DNA of 64,000 bases from Rhizophagus irregularis. Lineage: Eukaryota > Glomeromycota > Glomeromycetes > Glomerales > Glomeraceae. Under the pieces are notes generated by a model, which was not told the DNA's origin, searched no databases, and saw only the letters and a program-made list of their open reading frames with translations. Numbering within the stretch: the stretch's first letter is position 1; every line of letters begins with the position of its first letter. Below, piece after piece: positions 48,778-62,307 of this stretch. A program made the position numbers and the translations under genes. The stretch is taken from NCBI RefSeq assembly GCF_026210795.1, contig NC_089432.1, positions 2,418,001 to 2,482,000 on the forward strand. Reading direction: 5' to 3'.

Positions 48778-49219
48778 TTATTTGTTGTTATTTGGATAGT
48801 ATAATCAATTAAATTTATTAATTTGCGAAAGTCAAAAAACTTTATTTATAAATTATAGTTCATTTCGTTACGGTGTTGTATTACATAAAAAAAAAAAACT
48901 GGGATCCCAGACCCCAGGCGTTACTGACTAGTGAATTTTTATTTGCTTTTTTATTTTATTATATTTCTGATTTATTCATATTTTTTCCATTATTATTCCG
49001 TTTTTTATCATGGTTAATTATCAGCAAATTATCAGTTAATTTTAGAAATTTGATAGTCCATTTTAATTCCGTATTTATATTGCTGAAATTACTGAAAGAA
49101 TCCGGATTGTTACTCAACCGGTTACTATTCCGAAAAAATTCACTGAATATTTACGGAATCCAAACAAAATCATGGAGTTATAACGGAAATATTCTGGAGT
49201 GTCATTTTTTATAGGGAAA

Positions 49220-51110
49220 GGCAGCAGAATTAGGAAATTCATCTGGAATAAATAGTTTAGGATATTGTTATCGAAATGGAATTGGAACTGATATTGATAA
49301 TAAAAAAGCAATTGAATTATATCAAAAGGCTGCAGATTTAGGAAATGCATCTGGAATTAATAATTTAGGACAATGTTATGAAAATGGAATTGAAATTGAT
49401 ATTGATTATCAAAAAGCATTTAAATTATATCAAAAGGCAGCAGATTTAGGAAATGCGTTTGGAATAAATAATTTAGGATTTTGCTATCAAAATGGATTTG
49501 GTACTATTGTTGATAAGAAAAAAGCATTTGAATTATATCAAAAGGCAACAGATTTAGGAAATGCATTTGGAATAAGTAATTTAGGGCAATGCTATGAAAA
49601 TGGATTTGGTACTGATATTGATAAGAAAAAAGCATTTGAATTATATCAAAAAGCAGCAGGTTTAGGAAATGCATTTGGAATAAATAATTTAGGATATTGT
49701 TATGAAAATGGATTTGGTACTGATATTGATAAGAAAAAAGCATTTGAATTATATCAAAAAGCAGCAGATTTAGGAAATGCATTTGGAATAAATAATTTAG
49801 GACAAAGTTATCAAAATGGAAATGGAATTGATATTGATTATCAAAAGGCATTTAAATTATATCAAAAAGCAGCAGATTTAGGAAATGCATTTGGAATAAA
49901 TAATTTAGGATATTGTTATAAAAATGGATTTGGTACTAATATTGATAATAAAAAAGCATTTGAATTATATCAAAAAGCAGCAGAATTAGGAAATTCAACT
50001 GGAATAAATAATTTAGGAGATTGCTATCAATATGGAATTGGAACTGATATTGATAAGAAAAAAGCATTTGAATTATATCAAAAAGCAGCAGATTTAGGAA
50101 ATGCATTTGGAATAAATAATTTAGGATATTGTTATGAAAATGGAATTGGTACTGATATTGATTATCAAAAAGCATTTGAATTATATCAAAGGGCAGCAGA
50201 TTTAGGAAATGCATTTGGAATAAATAATTTAGGACAATGTTATCAAAATGGAAATGGAATTGATATTGATTATCAAAAAGCATTTAAATTATATCAAAAA
50301 GCAGCAGATTTAGGAAATGCATTTGGAATAAATAATCTAGGATATTGTTATAAAAATGGATTTGGTACTAATATTGATAATAAAAAAGCATTTGAATTAT
50401 ATCAAAAAGCAGCAGAATTAGGAAATTCAACTGGAATAAATAATTTAGGAGATTGCTATCAATATGGAATTGAAACTGATATTGATAGGAAAAGAGCATT
50501 TGAATTATATCAAAAAGCAGCAGATTTAGGAAATGCATTTGGAATAAATAATTTAGGATTTTGTTATGAAAATGGAATTGGAATTGATATTGATAAGAAA
50601 AAAGCATTTAAATTATATCAAAAGGCAACAGATTTAGGAATTGCAATTGGAATAAATAATTTGGGATATTGTTATGAAAATGGATTTGGTACTGATATTG
50701 ATAAGAACAAAGCATTTGAATCATATCAAAAGGCAGCAGATTTAGGAAATGTATTTGGAATAAATAATTTAGGATGCTGTTATGAAAATGGATTTGGTAC
50801 TAATATTGATAAGAAAAAAGCATTTGAATCATATCAAAAAGCAGCAGATTTAGAAAATACATTTGGAATAACCAATTTAGGAAATTGTTATCTTAATGGA
50901 ATTGGGACTGGTATTGATTATCAAAAGGCATTTGAATTATATGAAAAGGCGTCAAATTTAGGGATTAGTGTAGCTCAATATAATCTTGCTATGATGTATG
51001 AGAATGGAAAAGGAACTGTGAAAAATATAAATGAAGCAATTTATTGGTACAAAAAATCTGCTGAACAAGGAAATCAAGGTGCTCAAAATAAATTAGAGGA
51101 GCTTAAATAG
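49220..51110 (+). repeat. Sel1 repeat array of K4 (108 bp coding units)
   Basis: About 17 units of 36 codons, consensus KKAFELYQKAADLGNAFGINNLGYCYENGFGTDID. A block of roughly 250 bp starting at 49809 recurs at 50241, 432 bp or four units later, almost unchanged, so the array has recently grown by multi-unit duplication. The reverse strand is also open over long distances, an effect of the repeat composition. Confidence 0.8.
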
Positions 51111-53967
51111 AAAAATAAAGAATAATTCATGTAAAAGTAAATTAAGAATATTTGATTAAACATTTAAATAAAATAACACATAACAATCATTATTTTTTAA
51201 ATATTATTAAATTGTCATTTATATTTTTAACTAAAATTTATTTTTAGTATATTTAATAAGAAATTTTTCATTACAATTGATAATTGCTTGTAACTATAAA
51301 CAATTTATGTACTGATATCTAGTACCTATTTATTAACAATAATTTAATCTATTACTAGGAAACGGGAACCGTTGTAAGTCCGGAGCGAAAAACTAAAATT
51401 TACGATTTCATTGGTGACGATCACGTGGCGGACAGAGAATTTCACGTGATCGATTTTTTTTCATAGTGCGTAGACATATATTGTCCGGAGCGAAGCGAAG
51501 GACAATTATAATATTACTAAACTAAAACTGTTGTCAAGCATCTCCTTCAATTTCATCAAATAGTTACGTTATTGTAACGATCAATAAATTAAAAGCTATT
51601 ACTAATCAATCTATCATTTGGGGCCATAATTAACAAATTTTTATTTTAGAATTATTAAATTTAATAATACAGTCGTTCCAGGGCCTCCGAACTATTTTTA
51701 TTTAAAATTACTTGATTTAATAACAATAAATAGTCAGTTGGGTACATAATTATTAATTACCGTATAGAACTGCCTAAAGTACTCCAAGTCTAAATTAATT
51801 TAAATTTAAAAAAAAAGTAGTTAAAAAAAAAAATGAAAATGAAAGATGATTAATAAGAAAATCAAACTTTTTTGTTAACATTATCTCATTAGTAAAAAAA
51901 AATATACACACATGACTATAATAGCAAACCAAATTATTAATCTATAGTAAATAACATGTCACGCAATTCAAATTATTTATAAGGAGGGTAATCCAAATAA
52001 ATATCACTGGGTAATCCAAATATCACCGGAGTTTTTTTAGTTATAATATATGTCCCCTTTATTCTTACAGTATGCGGAAATTTGTTTTGCTGAAGATAGT
52101 AATAAATAATATTTGCAAAAAAAAATTATAAAAATAAATGTATTTACTTAATGTCTCAAAAAAAATACAATGAAGATACTTGTACAACAGTATTTAATCA
52201 GCAAACAGAATAGATTTATTTAATTTAATAATCTCATGTCAAAATTTTCTTTAAGTTAAATATAAAAAAAAATTTCAGATTTAGCGATTTTTTAACCAAT
52301 TTACTAAAATTCAGCGTATAAAACGAAATAAAAGTTGACATAACACCAATCGACACTTTGCTATTACCACTGTTTTTAATTTAGCCCCTAATTGTGTAAC
52401 CAATGCAAATTTCCCGATTTCCTCCATTTTTTTCAATTGCTTTTAATAAAAGTTTCTTGTTAAGTTTATTTTTTGCAAATTTTCCATGATTTTATAAACA
52501 TTTTATGACAATCTATATACTTGCAAAGTTATAAGTATGATATTTACCAGGTAAGAGTTGGTTTTCAAGTTATGAAGTTTTACAGATTTCCTTCGGGTTT
52601 CTTTTTATGCAAAAATTGTCTTAAACCTATTAAAATTTAGCATAGATATAATTCGTTAATGTTGCAACTGTCGAACATTTGTAGATCCTATATACTATTA
52701 AATTTTTATTTTTATTTTTATTACCCAAGGTATACTAAGTGTCAGTACAAATTATATATATACTATTAAAATCCATTACGTTATACTGTATGTAGGTGGT
52801 AGTCACACCACGTTTTTTAAAAAATAAGTTTATTTTTCTAAATCTTTAGCCTCTTGCGTGTTAGATTCAAGTGTCAGATCCCATAGATCTCGTTAACTAC
52901 AGGAAATGAATGAAGAAACCTTATAAAAACCTTTTATTAAACATTTTGTTTATGATAAGTTTGCTTTCTTAATTTAATACCTAAAACGTTAGCAGTTAAA
53001 ATTTAAAAACACAAATTTCCATTCATTAATAAATAATTTAGAACTTATAAAGTTATTCATTATTAATGTCTATTTGTTTTATTATAGGTTTTATGAGCCA
53101 AACTGAATATTTTATATTATTTATATAATAATAAGGTCATGTATCCCTAAATAATTATAGCTATAGATAGACATATTGAATTATTATGATTCTATATTTG
53201 TTAGAAAGAGTTTTGTTCGCTCTTTTATAGAAATCAAAGATTGTTCAAATTGAATCACAAGAAGCTTAGATATTAATTTTTAAATATAAATTATTAATTA
53301 ATTAATTTCTTGTTATTCTATGATTTATTTTAGATTATTCTTATGCTGTAAGAATGGATATAGTTTCTTTTTATTGGTTATTAGTCACTGAAGAGTTTTG
53401 TCGTTTCAAAAATTATAAATTTAAAAAAGAATGAAAGTCAATGAATAGTCACGTGATCTGAATTTCATAGTTTATTGGCTAATCAATGTCGATCATCACA
53501 TGAAATTAAACCAATGAATGGATTTTTAATTTATACTATAATTATGTATATTTAAATGGTTATATGTATAGTCATGTCAGATTAAAATAACTTTAAAGTA
53601 TTAGGATAAGCTTTGTTTGTTCTTTTAGAATATTAAAAATTATTTAAGTGCCGGTCCTTATATGATCGACATAAAATTATTATGCAGATCCGGGGGGAAT
53701 TTACTATGAAAAACTATGATATACAAATAATTGTCAACAATACCGATAAGGAAAACCCCAAATGTTGTGTAAACAGACACAAAAAAAATCACATTACTCT
53801 GTTCTTCATAGCCCGTTCAAACAATATATATATAAAAAAAAATACTCTCTTTATTATTTAAAACGCACTTATAGTACGGTCGACGTTGGATTTTGGTATA
53901 AAGAAGTATATTACTAGTAAAATTGCAATTTCTAAAATTTATTACAACCAAACCAAAAACCCATTAT
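51111..53967. other. K4 3' flank and gene-free interval
   Basis: 51111-51800 matches the K5 3' flank at 62308-63410. Relative to it, about 150 bp (51355-51504) is extra; this segment is GC-richer, has CACGTGAT motifs and ends in TTGTCCGGAGCGAAGCGAAG. The remainder to 53967 is AT-rich with no supported gene. Confidence 0.5.
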
Positions 53968-56900
53968 TCATGTATTTTTTGAAGATTCTGCTTCTTCCAA
54001 AGCACGAAGTGAAGCAGAAGCTTTAAAAGTTCTAGTATAATTTGCAATCCAGTTTTGAATGGTTTGAACTTTTGGAATATCATTTTCTTCTATTTCTTCT
54101 TGTGACGCACGTTCTGTAAGATTATCATACATTTCTTGTGCGGACATTTTCTTTCTTTTGTCAATATTTCCATTCAAAAACATTGTTTCCATTAGCGCTT
54201 TAATTTCTGGTTTTATTCTTTTTACCGTTCCTCGCTGATTTATTATTTGTTTTTCTTTTAGTGCCCACCCCGCAAAGAAGATACCACGTCTATAAATGAA
54301 TAAATATTAACAAATTGACCAATGGCAAGAAAATATCACAATGTATTATAAAACTTACATTGTGTTTTGTTGTGTATTTTCTTTATTTGTGAGGTCAACC
54401 AAATCCAAATCAACAGAAGAAATTATGATCTAATTGGGAATTGGGTTAATATTTGTACAGTAAATAAAGGGATTGTAAGTATTTACCGTATTTATTTTCT
54501 GATTATTGTTTTGGATATTATTTATTTCTGATGCTAATAAAAAAGTATTGGAAATTTAAGATTAGAGTTCAAAATTAACAAAAATACGATCAATAACTTA
54601 CAAATTGGTCTTAATATTGGAGTTACCCATTGATTAGTTGCTTTAGAAGGAGTAGTAAAACTAGGATTTGGTTTTGTAGTTGGAGTTTTTTCCAACTTTT
54701 TTATTTTCGCTGGCGTAATCGTTGTCCATTCATTTATATGAGGTAAGGCACGTGCAAGTATATGACCTGCATTAGGACCATCAACTGGCCAAGACCATTC
54801 ATTCCAATTATTTATACCAGCTATAGTTCCGATCTTTGTTTTTTTGTCTATTCAAAAAAATTGTATCAAAAATTCAATCTAATATCTAAAAAATCAATAT
54901 ATTTTTTTTTAATTCTTACCAAATTCACGATCAGGTGTCAGTTGTGAAATGCGAGCTCCTGAAATATTCTGTATTGCTTTTTGAATATCTTCTCCATCAG
55001 TAATATTCAATCCAAGTCGTACATAACGTTTTATTGCTTGTGAAATCTACAAAAATAAAATAATGTAAGTAATAAAAAAAATAATTTTCTTCAAGTTTTA
55101 CATTACTTGAGCATGATGGGAATCTATTGATGTTTTGGCTTCTCCAGCCTCTAAGAATATCCACCGTCTCACTTCTACGTTGTACCAATCATACCAATAA
55201 GAAAGGATGATCATCAGTTGTGTATTGTGATAATGTGGACCATTATCAGAAATAATCGTTATCCATTTAGGTTTTTGTTCAAGATTTTCTATTACAGCAT
55301 GGAGAGAAGAGGCAGTGAACCAAGCATCTTGCTTGGTGTCATCAGACCAGTGATCGAATGCTTCAATATTCATAGTTTGTGTACCTTTGATTTTTTGATA
55401 CACAAGAACTGAATGCAAAGTCCATCCGCGTTTTCCAAAAAATTCAGATTTTGTCTCACGAGAAGTTTGTGGAAGAATTCTCATCTTATAATCAACAATA
55501 AGGACTGCACCTTCATCATCCAACTCTTGAAGTCTAATATTAAATTGTGAATTTAGGTAAAATTTTCTTATAAGGTGAGATAACCAGAATATTAGTTGCT
55601 TTAGTTTAATATTCAAAAATTCGTGATGCTCGGCTGATAATTGTTTTTTTAACAGCTCAAAGATGAAAAATAATTTATTGCATTGTGAACATGCATCAGT
55701 ATGTGATTCTGAACATATTCCAAAAGCATGAATTAAGCAATGACAGATACAAGGATTGTGTTTTGGTTTTCCGGTAATATCAACTTTCAACTCTTTTTCA
55801 AAATCCTTTCTGAGATATCGTCGAAGAATCTGTAATTGTTTACATAAATCGTTCTTTTTTCAAATAATAGACGCTATTATTATTATTATAACGTGATAAT
55901 TACAAAGGTACATGAAATATTTACCTTCAATTGCGTATTTACAATATTATTTTCTATCAATTTTTCAAGATCTAAAAATACCTCATAAAAATTTTCATTG
56001 CATATTGAACACAGTCCCCCTAAATTTCCTTATAGACAAATCTACCACTTTCCAATCGTGTCATAAAGGATGTACGTCCCATACCATTAGGATAAAGTTC
56101 TGTGAACTTTTCCCATAAAGATTTTTTATTATTCTGCAGGTACAAGATAGGTAATCCACTTTCATTATCCGTCTTATAGGATGACATGTTTACATTATTT
56201 TTATCAGAAAAAAAAGAGTCAAATTGATCTAATTTTTCTTGTGATAATCTCATACGATGTGTGACAGGCTTCAACATCGGAGGGCAGCCGTAACCACATA
56301 ATCGTGAATGTCGCTTTGCATCAATTATTGTGTGACTTCCAACCTATGATTTATAATAGGTGCATGGTGTAACAAAAAAAAATCATACGATCTTAATTTT
56401 TTTGAATAATTTTTTCAAATAATTTTTTTTTTCGAATAATTTTTTTGAATAATTTTTTCAAATAATTTTTTTTTCGGATAATTTTTTCAAATAATTTTTT
56501 TTTGAATAATTTTTTTCAAATTATAATCTCATTTTATTATCAAATAATAAATCAAATAATATATTTTTTCTAATATTTATACATAAAATCTATTCAAAAT
56601 GTTTTTGTTTCTATGAACGTATATATATTTCTAAAATCTATATTTCTATGAATGTATGTATATTTCTATGAATGTATAAGTCTATATTCTATGAATGTAT
56701 ATAGTCTATATTCTATGAATGTATAAGTCTATATTTCTATGAACGGATAAGTCTATCAAAAATGTTTGTATTTCTATGAATGTATAAAATAAAATCTAAA
56801 TAGATAAAAATTGGGCTAAATCCTTTCTGTTTGTAAGTGTGCTTTTGTTGTTATTATATTACACTTACCTTCAGGTTTTTTTCAAGTTGGGAGTATGTGA

Positions 56901-58285
56901 ATTGATCAGCAATTATAGATATAACCCTACGCTTACCATCATGGGTTTTTTTATTTTCTTTTATAGCACGATCAAAACAATACCAAAATTTTTTTGTCGA
57001 ATTTGGCATATGAATGGGTGTTGATACAAGAAAGCCCATTTTGTAAAGATTTGAAATTGTATCACTATCTTTTATAGGATTAGAGGCTCGCGTCCAGAAC
57101 TGAAACTTTTTATAATAAAGTTAGTATGCAGATTGAATTATCTCTTTTATATATCAAATACAAAAAACTAACCTTTGATTCATCAGAATTGAAAGGAGTG
57201 ATCAGATGAGCACCAGCCGCTTTTAGCAAAGCTCGCCATGCACGCAATTCCCTATCCCCAAATTTATGACGTTTTGGATAAATTTTTTTCAGATTTGAAT
57301 AAAGCTCAAAAATATCACTATCTTGTTTTCCCCAATGACACTACTAGAAAACAATATAAAATTTCGGTAGGTTAATTAATGTTATGAATTGTTAATTTTT
57401 GACAGTGCATGTTCCATTTAAGTCTTTAAGATAACCTATATCAAAAATTGTATACCAATTAATCTTTGAAATAGTTCGTCTCTTTAGATGATATTCAAAT
57501 AATTTTGACATCAGAGACAGATTACCCCAATTACTAGGCGTGCATGTGGGAACATGATGCACGCGTAATGAATTTTGTGTTTTTTGATCTTTGAGACCAT
57601 AAAGTTCGCTCCCATCATACTTTTCCATAAACCATGATTTGCGCCAAACTTCACTTGGTGTAGAGCCACGAATTATTTTTATTTTTTGTGCTTGTTGATA
57701 GATTTCAATAATACATTCATTATCAACAATTCTTGAAACAAATAACGCTTGTTTCTTATTGTAAAAGTGAAGGAGAGATGATGAATAGCCTGAACCAGCA
57801 TTATGCCACTCGGGATGAGATGATACCCCTAAGTCATGTATAAAAATTTTATATTTATCAATTGTAATTTGAAATGGAATAAATCTAAAACCACGAGATA
57901 TTTCTTCTATTATTTTTGGATCGTTTTGTCCTATTATTGTTGGTCCCGAAAATTTAGTTGAGTTATGAAAAATTTCATTATATAAAGAGCTAATAGCTCT
58001 AGTAGGAGAGGTTTCTATTTTCCCAGAAAATGAACCTGAACTACAAAAATATCCAGGCTGTCTAGGGTGTTCTGAATTTCCAAGAACCACTGAAACTATA
58101 AACTCCCGATTATTGCGAAAAACACGAGTCTTCTGACCCAAGCGAATAGGAAAAAAAATATGTTCGTTACTATCATTTGTAGATCGGGAACTCCACCAGT
58201 AACGGGCAAATGGTCCATAGTGTAAATTTTCATTAATAGTGCCTGGTGTTAACAATGTAACTGGAACTTCAAGGTGTTTTGCCAT
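53968..58285 (-). CDS. FYR-domain protein fused to a DDE-like RNase H fold, ten exons, about 1078 aa
   Basis: Minus-strand exons: 58285-57404, 57340-57173, 57099-56869, 56343-55925, 55829-55107, 55046-54920, 54847-54602, 54533-54487, 54429-54359, 54289-53968. All joins fit except exon 4, one base short near 56033 (the exon 1 donor is also weak). N-terminal module: FFPIRLGQKTRVFRNNREFI, like FYRN, then PGYFCSSGSF and TSPTRAISSLYNEIF, like FYRC, as in chromatin proteins (resemblance by eye). A Cys/His cluster (CICHCLIHAFGICSE, CSQCNKLFF) precedes a DDE-like core: Asp in IVDYKMRI, Asp in IISDNGPHYHN, Glu in FLEAGEAKTSIDSHHAQISQ. The C-terminus has WNEWSWPVDGPNAGHI and a conserved-looking end KMSAQEMYDNL...TIQNWIANY. 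It could be a transposase or a domesticated nuclear protein. No terminal repeats found. Confidence 0.7.
56344..56868 (-). repeat. Large intron of the FYR-DDE gene with two tandem repeats
   Basis: At 525 bp this is far longer than the other introns in the gene. 56400-56525 repeats AATAATTTTTTCAAATAATT units; 56600-56790 repeats TCTATGAATGTATAAGTCTA in about seven imperfect copies. No coding sequence. Confidence 0.7.
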
Positions 58286-59643
58286 TATTTTTGTGAAAGT
58301 AAGAAGTCAACAGCAGATTTTAAACGCGACCTTTATTACTATGAGATTATCCCCGAATGTTATTATTATCGATATTAATAATCAATGTCGATCATAACCG
58401 GATTAGCACTTAAATTGAATCACAGGAAACAGTTATTAAACTTTAAAATTATACTTTTTTTCTTTTTTTTTGTTCAACGTGAAAAATCTGAAGACCTGAT
58501 TTCCTATGATGAAATAATGAAAATTAGAAAGGTCGCACTAAGTTGAAAACAGCGATAAATAATTCAAGCTTAAAAATAAAAAAAAAATTCACATCATTTT
58601 AAAGTGATTTAATTATTTCTTGATAGTTTAAGATAAAATCCGTTATTTTACAAGATTCTAATTTGTATATTCAATAAGTAAATTCTATTATATTCCAAAT
58701 AGAATTGATTGATAATGTTAAATTCGTAGTCTCCGAACCAGTGAACATTTTGGGAAATCGTTTTGCAAATTAATTACCCTTAAATGGCTTTTGAACTAAT
58801 TTGCCCAGAAATTTTTTTTTAAATGTTATAGAATAATGTTCCGAATGATAAAATTTGCGTCATCATATTAGTTGATTAACATATACTTGCTAATTAAGGT
58901 TACGATGTTATACAAATTGGTGATATTAGCGTGATAAACTAGCCAAAATTTGTATTACAACCCCAATTGCTTAAAATTGAGAGAATCAAGGTTCGGCAAA
59001 ATTATTATATTGTATGATTAGAAATTTTTTCTTTAGTGACGCTGGATTCCAGCCTTTAAAAACACTATATTATTCAATTACAGGAAGTGTACCGATCACA
59101 AACTTAATATTTTTTATTAAAATATTATTTATAGGTTGGTAAATAATTTATTTTAAAAGGCATGATAAACAAAAAAAAAATATAAAATATTAAATTATTT
59201 ATTTCTATCGATCACAGGCTGACTAGCTTATTGTACCATGTTTTACTTATATTGAGCGGTATATCTAATTTTGAATGGTAGATACTTTTGGAATGTCAGT
59301 TTCTTCCAAACTACCTTTCTTTAATAAGTTCATATCACATTTCCTGCCTGCTATCATATCTATTGCTTTTATCTAAATTTGCTGCTAATTAATTTACAAA
59401 GATAATTCCTGAAATATAATAGTAGAATTCACCGGTTGGAAATAGGTCACCAACTAATATTTTTCTTTCTTAAGCTTTGTTAAAGAAATTTAGAAATTCT
59501 GATTGTGCTGAACTTTATTAACCGCAGTCCTGCATGCTGAAGATCAGTGAAATTTCGACATAAATAGTTTACAAAAGAAAAAAAATATTTTATTTTCAAA
59601 ACGTAAAACTAAATTCTGCTGCAACATTATTGTATACCCAACA
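58286..59643. other. Interval between the FYR-DDE gene and K5
   Basis: Holds the third TTATCGC-type motif (minus strand, about 58548-58565, TTATCGCTGTTTTCA). 58620-58710 and 59520-59643 match the K4 upstream region. No gene seen. Confidence 0.45.
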
Positions 59644-62307
59644 ATGTCTAATAACGCTGAACTTACCAAAAATTCAAATGAGTATAATTGGATTGAAGAT
59701 GCAATTTCTAAAAAACTTATTAAATATTATGAATTTGAACAATTTTGCGATCTGCAAGAAATTGGTTTCGGAGGTTTTGGAAAAGTTTATCGTGCAAGTT
59801 GGAAGAATTATTACAAACAATGTGCACTAAAATCCTTTTTTAATTTCAATGACTCTACAGTTAAAGGAATTGCCCGTGAGGTAATTTTAATATCGAACAT
59901 ATTTCAATTTATATATGTACATTTCTATTATTAACAAACTTCTATTTATTGCTTAGATTCAACTTCAGCGCGAAGTTGATTTTCATAATAACATAATCCG
60001 TTTTTATGGTGTCACAACTTCTAGTAAAGGTATCAAAAATTTTAGTAATAATATTTTTTTTTTATATTAAATAAACTAACTTGTAAATTTTTCTTTTTTA
60101 AAAGAAAATCAAAGAAAAAAGTATATGTTAGTAATGGAATATGCCGACAATGGTACCCTCCGAAAATATTTGAAAGAAAATTTGGAAAAACTCACTTGGA
60201 ATGATAAATTCAATCTTGCATTCCAACTGGTTTGCGCAGTATCATGCTTACATAACGAAGGGATCATGCACCGCGATTTGGTAATTAATTTACATCTTAT
60301 TATGATTTACGTAGTGTATTTTAGCAATTAGCTCATCTTAATTTAATTATTTTAATTTAATGTAATTGAATAGCACTCCAATAATATATTAGTTCATCAG
60401 AATACTGTCAAGCTAGCAGATTTTGGCTTATCAAAAAGAATTGAAGAAATACCCAACTCTCAATCAAAAACATTTGGATTAATTCCATATGTTGATCCAA
60501 AAAGTTTTAATAGTAGTACAACAGAATTATATGTATTAAATAAAAAAAGTGATGTTTATAGCATTGGCGTATTGTTATGGGAAATATCCAGTTGCCAGCC
60601 TTCTTTTCACGGTAAACCATATGATGTTGGTTTAGCTTTAAGTATTTTACAAGGCCTTAGAGAAACACCCACTCATGATACACCTAAAGAATATATTAAA
60701 ATTTATATTGGTATGTATAAAATTACATTTATATGATCTAAATCATATAATTCTAATTAATTGAAGATAATTTTCTGTAGATTGTTGGAATTTTGAACCT
60801 GATAATCGTCCAACTATTGATCAGGTAGTTGAAGAATTAAAAGTACTCATAACGAAAGAAAACGTAATTATAAAAGATTTTCACTTATATAATAATACCA
60901 ATAATACTCTGTCATCAAATAACCATCAACTTTCTAATTCAACTGTTAAAATTTCTGAAAGTACTAATTCATTAAACGGAGAATTACAATTTATTCCGAA
61001 TACAAAAGATATAGAATCTTTAATGTCATCAAGTAACCAGTTTGAGAATAACTTTGATACAATAGTTATTAATACTATGTTCAATCTTTTTAATGATAGT
61101 GATGAAATAGGGAAGAAAAAGGTCTTAAGTTATCTCAATGAACAAAGTATAACTTTGCAATAGATCAATAATTTATTATTAAATAATCAAAATAACTCGC
61201 ATTCTATTTACTTGGAAAATTTAACAATTTAGGAATTGGAATCAGTGTTGATAATAAAAAAGCATTCAAGTTATATCAAAAAGCAGCAGATTTAGGAAAT
61301 TCACATGGAACAAATAATTTAGGGAATTGTTATCAATATGGAATTGGAACTGATATTGATAATAAAAAGCATTTGAATTGTATCAAAAGGTTGCAGATTT
61401 AGGAAATTCTTATGGAATAAATAGTTTAGGAGATTGTTATCAAAATGGAATTGGTACTGATATTGATTATCAAAAAGCATTTAAATTATATCAAAAGGCA
61501 GCAGATTTAGGAAATGAATTTGGGATAAATAGTATAGGATATTGTTATCAAAATGGATTTGGTACTGATATTGATAATAAAAAAGCATTTGAATTATATC
61601 AAAAGGCATCGGATTTAGGAAATTCATATGGAATAAATAATTTAGGACAAAGTTATCAAAATGGAATTGGAATTGATATTGATAATAAAAAAGCATTTAA
61701 ATTATATCAAAAGGCAACAGATTTAGGAAATTCATATGGAATAAATAATTTAGGAAATTGTTATCAAAATGGAATTGGAATTGATATTGATAATAAAAAA
61801 GCATTTAAATTATATCAAAAGGCAGCAGATTTAGGAAATTCATATGGAATAAATAATTTAGGAAATTGTTATCAATATGGAATTGAAATTAATATTGATA
61901 ATAAAAAAGCATTTGAATTATATCAAAAGGCATCAGATTTAGGAAATTCTTATGGAATAAATAGTTTAGGAGATTGTTATGAAAATGGAATTGGAACTGA
62001 TATTGATAAGAAAAAAGCATTTGAATTATATCAAAAGGCAGCAGATTTAGAAAATACATTTGGAATAACCAACCTAGGAAATTGTTATCTTAATGGAATT
62101 GGGACTGGTATTGATTATCAAAAGGCATTTGAATTATATGAAAAGGTATCAAATTTAGGGATGAGTGTAGCTCAATATAATCTTGCTATGATGTATGAGA
62201 ATGGAAAAGGAACTGTGAAAAATATAAATAAAGCAATTTATTGGTACAAAAAATCTGCTGAACAAGGAAATCAAGTTGCTCTAAATAAATTAGAGGAGCT
62301 TAAATAG
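59644..62307 (+). pseudogene. K5: near-duplicate of K4; kinase part intact, Sel1 tail out of frame
   Basis: Exons 59644-59880, 59957-60029, 60105-60280, 60374-60710 and 60781 onward, same plan as K4 and nearly identical in exon 1. All kinase motifs are present (GFGGFGKVYRA, CALKSFF, HRDL/HSNN, ADFG, CWNFEPDNRPTI). In exon 5 the codon after TLQ/TLQ-like ITLQ is TAG at 61161-61163 (K4 has GAG), giving a 401 aa kinase without Sel1 repeats. Downstream, a 4 bp loss near 61212 and one base lost in an A run near 61366 shift the tail, which then stays open from 61378 to 62307 with about eight Sel1 repeats. It may be a pseudogene, or a gene for a short kinase; the kinase part shows no decay. Confidence 0.8.

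Follow-up and report, generated by a model that had tools for sequence, protein, structure and literature searches.

A TTAA-flanked DNA transposon family of Rhizophagus irregularis with a probable FYR-like module on its DDE-type transposase

Sola3 elements combine a TTAA target-site duplication with a Sola-type transposase, and in the chromodomain integrases of chromoviruses and in Ginger elements a DDE enzyme is linked to a domain that belongs to chromatin proteins. Here we describe an element from the fungus Rhizophagus irregularis that agrees with Sola3 in its target duplication, and with the chromovirus and Ginger enzymes in the principle of such a coupling, their accessory domain being different from FYR. 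It lies at positions 53644-58413 of a stretch of 64,000 nucleotides (assembly GCF_026210795.1, contig NC_089432.1, positions 2,418,001 to 2,482,000, forward strand), which is referred to as the window and supplies the coordinates used below. The TTAA duplication is also shared with the Kolobok and piggyBac superfamilies. In the relevant passages of PMC9587614, Kolobok elements have this duplication, terminal inverted repeats (TIRs) and a DDD/E transposase with zinc motifs, count fungi among their hosts, and are defined by 5'-RR...YY-3' termini and a C/DxxH motif between the second D and the last E; piggyBac elements are given the same target duplication. Two-thirds of the transposable elements of R. 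irregularis are reported as unclassified in part of a further source (PMC11075540), and the present work offers a bounded element family for this mostly unclassified repertoire.

The element and its family in the genome

In outline, window positions 53644-58413 hold a TTAA-flanked DNA transposon with imperfect TIRs of about 27 bp and one multi-exon gene on the minus strand. We consider it likely that this is a decayed copy of a family of cut-and-paste DNA transposons with only one gene, which is spliced and codes for a DDE-type transposase that has an FYRN-FYRC-like module at its N-terminus. An earlier note on this DNA, made from the letters alone, had given only the borders of the coding region, and the minus-strand region of several exons from 58285 to 53968 is indeed present, with the quoted peptides in it; the whole element extends beyond it on both sides, from 58413 to 53644. 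The coding blocks on this strand and their GT-AG borders were identified by eye. The predicted protein would consist, in order, of the FYRN-FYRC-like module, a Cys/His cluster that is probably a zinc site, a D-D-E core and a basic C-terminal domain. Ten exons had been proposed for the gene, but the first of the supposed introns is a 102-bp insertion, and the plan predicted from splice sites is left with about nine coding exons, E8 and E9 being tentative. The features are as follows.

58410-58413, no strand: TTAA target-site duplication at the 5' end of the element in gene orientation; shown directly by empty sites in two sister copies, not in the window copy
58383-58409, minus strand: 5' TIR (GTGCTAATCCGGTTATGATCGACAT...); agreement with the opposite end at 19 of the first 26 positions
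57437-58285, minus strand: first part of exon 1, 283 codons, the FYR-containing N-terminal region; the near-identical copy L001 stands for it in alignment A1
57872-58273, minus strand: block R1, exon-1 residues 5-138, holding the motifs of the earlier note; at best a divergent FYR-like repeat
57545-57793, minus strand: FYRN-FYRC-like module R2, exon-1 residues ~165-247; hhalign 93.9% against the FYR alignment
57335-57436, minus strand: 102-bp insertion, missing from L001 and L002; identical stretch at G000:C14:3154523-3154624
57173-57334, minus strand: second part of exon 1, unbroken with the first part in L001 and L002
56869-57099, minus strand: exon E3
55925-56343, minus strand: exon E4 with a conserved SSYK...GGLC..C block; frame broken near 56028 in the window copy
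55107-55829, minus strand: exon E5, Cys/His cluster and DDE-type core; 19-member alignment A2
55680-55751, minus strand: Cys/His cluster, C27, C31, C39, H43, C47 and C50 of exon 5; probable zinc site
55491-55493, minus strand: first presumed catalytic Asp, D113 of exon 5; 18 of 19 aligned copies
55245-55247, minus strand: second presumed catalytic Asp, D195 of exon 5; 19 of 19
55149-55151, minus strand: probable third catalytic residue, E227 of exon 5; 19 of 19
54920-55046, minus strand: exon E6
54602-54847, minus strand: exon E7, the first part of which was included in the E6 query of the collinearity comparison
54487-54533, minus strand: exon E8, short and tentative, from a splice-site reading
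54359-54429, minus strand: exon E9, tentative, likewise from a splice-site reading
53968-54289, minus strand: exon E10 with a conserved C-terminal GWALK...NWI domain, perhaps DNA-binding
53648-53674, plus strand: 3' TIR (GTGCCGGTCCTTATATGATCGACAT...)
53644-53647, no strand: TTAA target-site duplication at the 3' end of the element

The genome (146.7 Mb in 32 contigs) contains at least 153 matches to the DDE exon and at least 137 to exon 1. Among the 73 near-full DDE matches listed, each of 690 bp or more, at least 64 have exon 1 no more than 4 kb upstream in the same orientation (median gap 1066 bp), and at least 67 have it within 12 kb; both counts are lower bounds, as part of the exon-1 matches was not entered, which can only lower them. 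Twenty-five loci were then fetched, selected for matches to both exons, mostly with few or no stops, and for near-identical pairs; with the window copy they make 26 sequences. Six exon queries from the window copy matched in the same order in all 25 loci (which had been selected for both exons), the gaps between the blocks were intron-sized, and exon identity to the window copy was 31-67% outside the closest subfamily. No relatives were found in viral contigs or prokaryote genomes, and exons E4 and E10 gave no convincing Pfam or PDB match.

In the closest copies, L001 and L002, similarity to the window begins at 58413 and ends at about 53640; identity over this length is 99.3-99.6%, apart from a gap at the 102-bp insertion. 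Three further pairs are near-identical, at 99.7-100% over 4.2-5.4 kb: L009 and L010 (100% over 4172 bp), L004 and L005 (99.8%), and L007 and L008 (99.7%, where the match begins at the first base of the L007 piece and may thus be part of a larger duplication). Such identity points to recent movement or duplication.

A TTAA-anchored TIR pair, chosen as the best pair and judged by eye, was clear in 23 of the 26 sequences. To test for empty sites, the flanks of L004 and L009 were each joined with a single TTAA and searched against the genome. The whole joined query was covered by 20 of 30 matches for L004 and by 15 of 23 for L009, representing uninterrupted empty sites, and the occupied loci gave two partial matches, 1-164 and 161-324, which have just the 4 bp of TTAA in common. 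At both insertions tested, there is accordingly an exact 4-bp TTAA duplication. Among four loci examined, the exact text of the joined site was present in L029, L030 and L032 and absent from L031. The search for paralogues with inverted repeats and target duplications that the earlier note had suggested was therefore strongly positive. Both insertions sit in repeats that have many uninterrupted copies; by eye, their joined flanks look partly open and resemble elements of the reverse-transcriptase type.

The DDE-type core and the FYR-like module

The D-D-E motifs lie where they had been placed (IVDYKM, ISDNG and LEAGEAK). In A2, which holds the DDE exon of 19 of the 26 sequences (L001 and L024 were left out for a stop, L002 as frame-split, and L005, L008, L010 and L011 as near-duplicates), D113, D195 and E227 are kept in 18, 19 and 19 copies, with 80-82 residues between the two Asp and 31 between D195 and E227. 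E230 and D236 are invariant as well, so that the third catalytic residue is not certain; E227 is the probable one, with the other two as alternatives. The Cys/His cluster, also noticed before, precedes the first Asp at 55751-55680. C31 and C39 are invariant in the 19 copies and the other four positions are at least 90% conserved, and the cluster is probably a zinc site. An RNase H fold of the core may be inferred from the order of the motifs, and some animal proteins may have a comparable core. N replaces the first presumed catalytic Asp in a single aligned copy, L019, which also has no clear TIRs.

Despite the shared target duplication, neither of the two described superfamilies accommodates the family. 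The 5' ends begin with GT, TT or GA, and an RR start was found in only three of the 23 clear-ended copies (L006, L011 and L023). C/DxxH was found in none of the 19 copies when E227 is taken as the last residue, and the interval that would hold it is only 31 residues long. Kolobok membership was rejected on these two counts. Pfam holds a piggyBac-type model, and no Pfam transposase family matched any of the 19 DDE-exon members at E values up to 5; piggyBac membership was rejected for this reason, and the profile search for DDE families proposed in the earlier note thus came back negative.

For exon 1, alignment A1 comprised 17 of the 26 sequences; near-duplicates, copies with a split frame and one that contains a stop were omitted, as was the window copy, for which L001 stands in. 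A1 was compared by hhalign with alignment A3, made of the three host FYR genes, TBRG1 (PDB 2wzo) and KMT2D. The whole exon reached 90.8%, and residues 132-250 reached 93.9% (matched from residue 165 on, at about 16% identity), with 2.4% for residues 5-138 and 0.31% for residues 245-337. With the DDE alignment as target, no part of exon 1 exceeded 0.10%, and unrelated comparisons overall stayed at or below 0.31%. None of 99 column-permuted FYR profiles reached the score of R2, the best giving 4.3%. The landmarks GY.S, F/Y...I, SP..VW and G..LFGL occur in the same order in R2 and in the FYR alignment. A FYRN-FYRC-like module at residues ~165-247 (57793-57545) is thereby supported. This lies downstream of the place first proposed: the quoted stretches, RLGQKTRVF... 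and TSPTRAISS..., fall within residues 5-138 (R1), where one of 99 permutations was as good against FYR, which is near chance. R1 compared with R2 was matched by none of 100 permutations, by a narrow margin, and R1 against a merged R2 and FYR profile by none of 60, with only about 21 columns aligned. A tandem, diverged FYR pair formed by R1 and R2 is possible.

The ratio of nonsynonymous to synonymous substitution rates (dN/dS, Nei-Gojobori) was determined for seven pairs, which share members and are not independent. It was 0.09-0.37 in R2, 0.16-0.73 in R1 and 0.06-0.15 in the DDE exon. The FYR half and the DDE half are both under purifying selection, these low values indicating that both are kept as protein. 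Alignments of the C-terminal exon (A4, n=15) and of exon E4 (A5, n=16) were also made.

By profile comparison, the module resembles that of TBRG1 and of the MLL-family protein KMT2D. It differs in being carried by a transposase and in its low identity, and the transposon exons were scanned without Pfam matches to PHD, SET or JmjC. The host has three ordinary FYR genes (L026, L027 and L028) with FYRN and FYRC above the cut-off; one of their FYRC matches shows a TAG in the six-frame reading. FYR is not known to act as a reader of histone marks. In the part of PMC8022399 that treats MLL1, FYRN and FYRC form the surface that binds its two cleaved fragments together. FYR is thus documented as a protein-interaction module; the earlier description of it as chromatin-reading goes beyond this evidence, and chromatin targeting is a point that we infer.

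Alternative explanations and a possible role for the module

Several results weigh against a DDE transposon with an FYR-like module. Three of the 26 sequences (L007, L008 and L019) have no clear ends, and in some others, L017 and L018 for example, the next-best TTAA pair scores nearly as high, although the ends of these two resemble each other. On the side of the core, to the missing Pfam transposase match is added a PDB profile search with A2 that gave no chain below E 0.6. In L009 and L010, which are mutually identical, exon 1 is split over two frames, and several other fetched copies contain stops, for example L020 (three blocks) and L021 (E3); because of this, young copies need not all be autonomous. 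For exon 1, Pfam FYRN matched none of the 17 members. FYRC matched six of them, all under the cut-off (best E 0.014; 16 bits against a curated 21), so that of the Pfam search suggested before, the FYRN part failed and the FYRC part was no more than suggestive. Among the ten exon-1 members listed singly, the five FYRC matches lie at residues ~180-247. One member matched the unrelated Alpha-amyl_C more strongly (E 0.003, of a chance type). A genome scan with Pfam FYRC recovered the three host genes and one weak match but no transposon copy, and a PDB profile search with A1 gave nothing below E 0.6. The FYR profile consists of five sequences only, and the borders of R2 were set after the positions of the weak Pfam matches were known.

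The weak FYRC and silent FYRN matches, the better score of an unrelated family in one member, the near-chance result for R1 and the small reference profile would all suit a DNA transposon whose N-terminal region merely resembles FYR and is an unrelated domain, serving for example to bind the terminal repeats. We regard this as unlikely, given the values of 91-94% for exon 1 and R2 against at most 0.31% for unrelated comparisons, the 99 permutations that all fell short, and the ordered landmarks. FYRC is, moreover, the Pfam family with the most member matches (six of 17, the next family having two). That the FYR-like region and the transposase are two adjacent genes riding in one transposon is a more remote prospect still. 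Some transposon families do carry a second gene, the gene model was read from sequence and not from transcripts, and the first part of exon 1 is followed, in the window copy, by a stop that comes with the insertion. Against two genes stand the window blocks, which by eye join in phase through GT-AG borders except at the two lesions described below, the intron-sized gaps, and copies L003 and L004, which are free of stops in blocks E1, E3, E4, E5 and E10. The profile match of R2, the triad and the linkage of both exons across the genome support the earlier proposal that an FYR module and a DDE-type core belong to one gene. The two separate genes that it had named as a refutation are improbable in view of the collinear exon blocks and the selection on both halves.

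The earlier note had also raised domestication, the host having retained for its own use a transposase joined to a chromatin module. A single long gene interrupted by many introns and a module of a host type, present in three host genes, would fit this, yet we give it hardly any credence, as dozens of dispersed copies carry TIRs and TTAA duplications and have empty sites, some copies are near-identical, and the window copy bears lesions. The exon linkage in dozens of copies, the empty sites with their TTAA duplication and the pairs of 99.7-100% identity show that this is a mobile family and not a single domesticated gene. Its elements measure 4.2-4.8 kb, with TTAA target duplications and imperfect TIRs of about 27 bp, in dozens of copies.

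For the transposase with an N-terminal FYR-like module, a mechanism can be outlined. Judging from the borders, the duplication and the triad, the DDE core would cut and join DNA at TTAA, and the C-terminal domain, or else the zinc domain, may bind the TIRs. By analogy with MLL, the FYR module would provide a protein-interaction surface, which might either hold transposase subunits together or dock the transposase on a host nuclear complex; in the latter case, integration sites would be biased. More tentatively, and in our view less likely than not, these TTAA-targeting DDE transposons could represent a superfamily not described before, whose FYR module, possibly as a tandem pair, docks the transposase on host trithorax/COMPASS-like complexes or other FYR partners and thereby steers integration. 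If so, chromatin-guided integration would have evolved independently in a DNA transposon.

No description of an FYR module paired with a DDE transposase was found among the papers listed by the literature searches, the scope of which did not extend to subscription journals and Repbase; papers that bring up both FYRN and transposases deal, by title, with MLL1, silkworm SET-domain genes and H3K4 methylation. If the pairing is real, the enzyme of a mobile element would itself contain a module that has until now been discussed in connection with chromatin regulators of the host. Because the ends of dozens of insertions can be read in this genome, it is possible to test how sites are chosen with respect to chromatin.

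State of the window copy and neighbouring features

The window copy carries two lesions. One is the 102-bp insertion in exon 1 (57436-57335), which is missing from L001 and L002; exon 1 is likewise uninterrupted in most other copies of the family. The other is a private one-base deletion near 56028, which breaks the frame of exon E4 in comparison with L001 and L002. Because of the two together, the window copy is probably broken and inactive, and would give no full protein. The same 102 bp occur identically at C14:3154523-3154624 (L033:1024-1125), the only other match found, and no further similarity was found around the two stretches, which share no flanks. Since the closest copies are without it and the identical stretch elsewhere comes without further similarity, the insertion has the look of a templated patch acquired by copying in the course of repair. 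An ordinary intron was considered for this stretch and is unlikely, as it is missing from L001 and L002 and its obvious splice sites break the frame: when the sites are paired by hand, neither of the nearby AG preserves the frame with the GTTATC donor. Splicing through a less usual internal GTCAAA donor and the second AG would keep the frame across the insertion.

The closest copies also show damage in the DDE exon: that of L001 is interrupted by a stop, and that of L002 changes frame, two TGA being present in the frame displayed by the exon search. Intron 3 of the window copy contains, at 56380-56790, an A/T-rich run of low complexity and a short tandem array (TATTTCTATGAATGTAT-like), both common to L001 and L002. 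E3 and E4 are separated by about 65-95 bp in most of the other fetched copies and by more in L013 and L019.

On either side of the element, the window contains long open frames (49215-51110 and 59648-62307) with repeats of the AADLGN..GINNLG.CY..GIGTDID type. We take these to be Sel1-like repeats, the second frame lying downstream of frames that are presumably protein-kinase-like.

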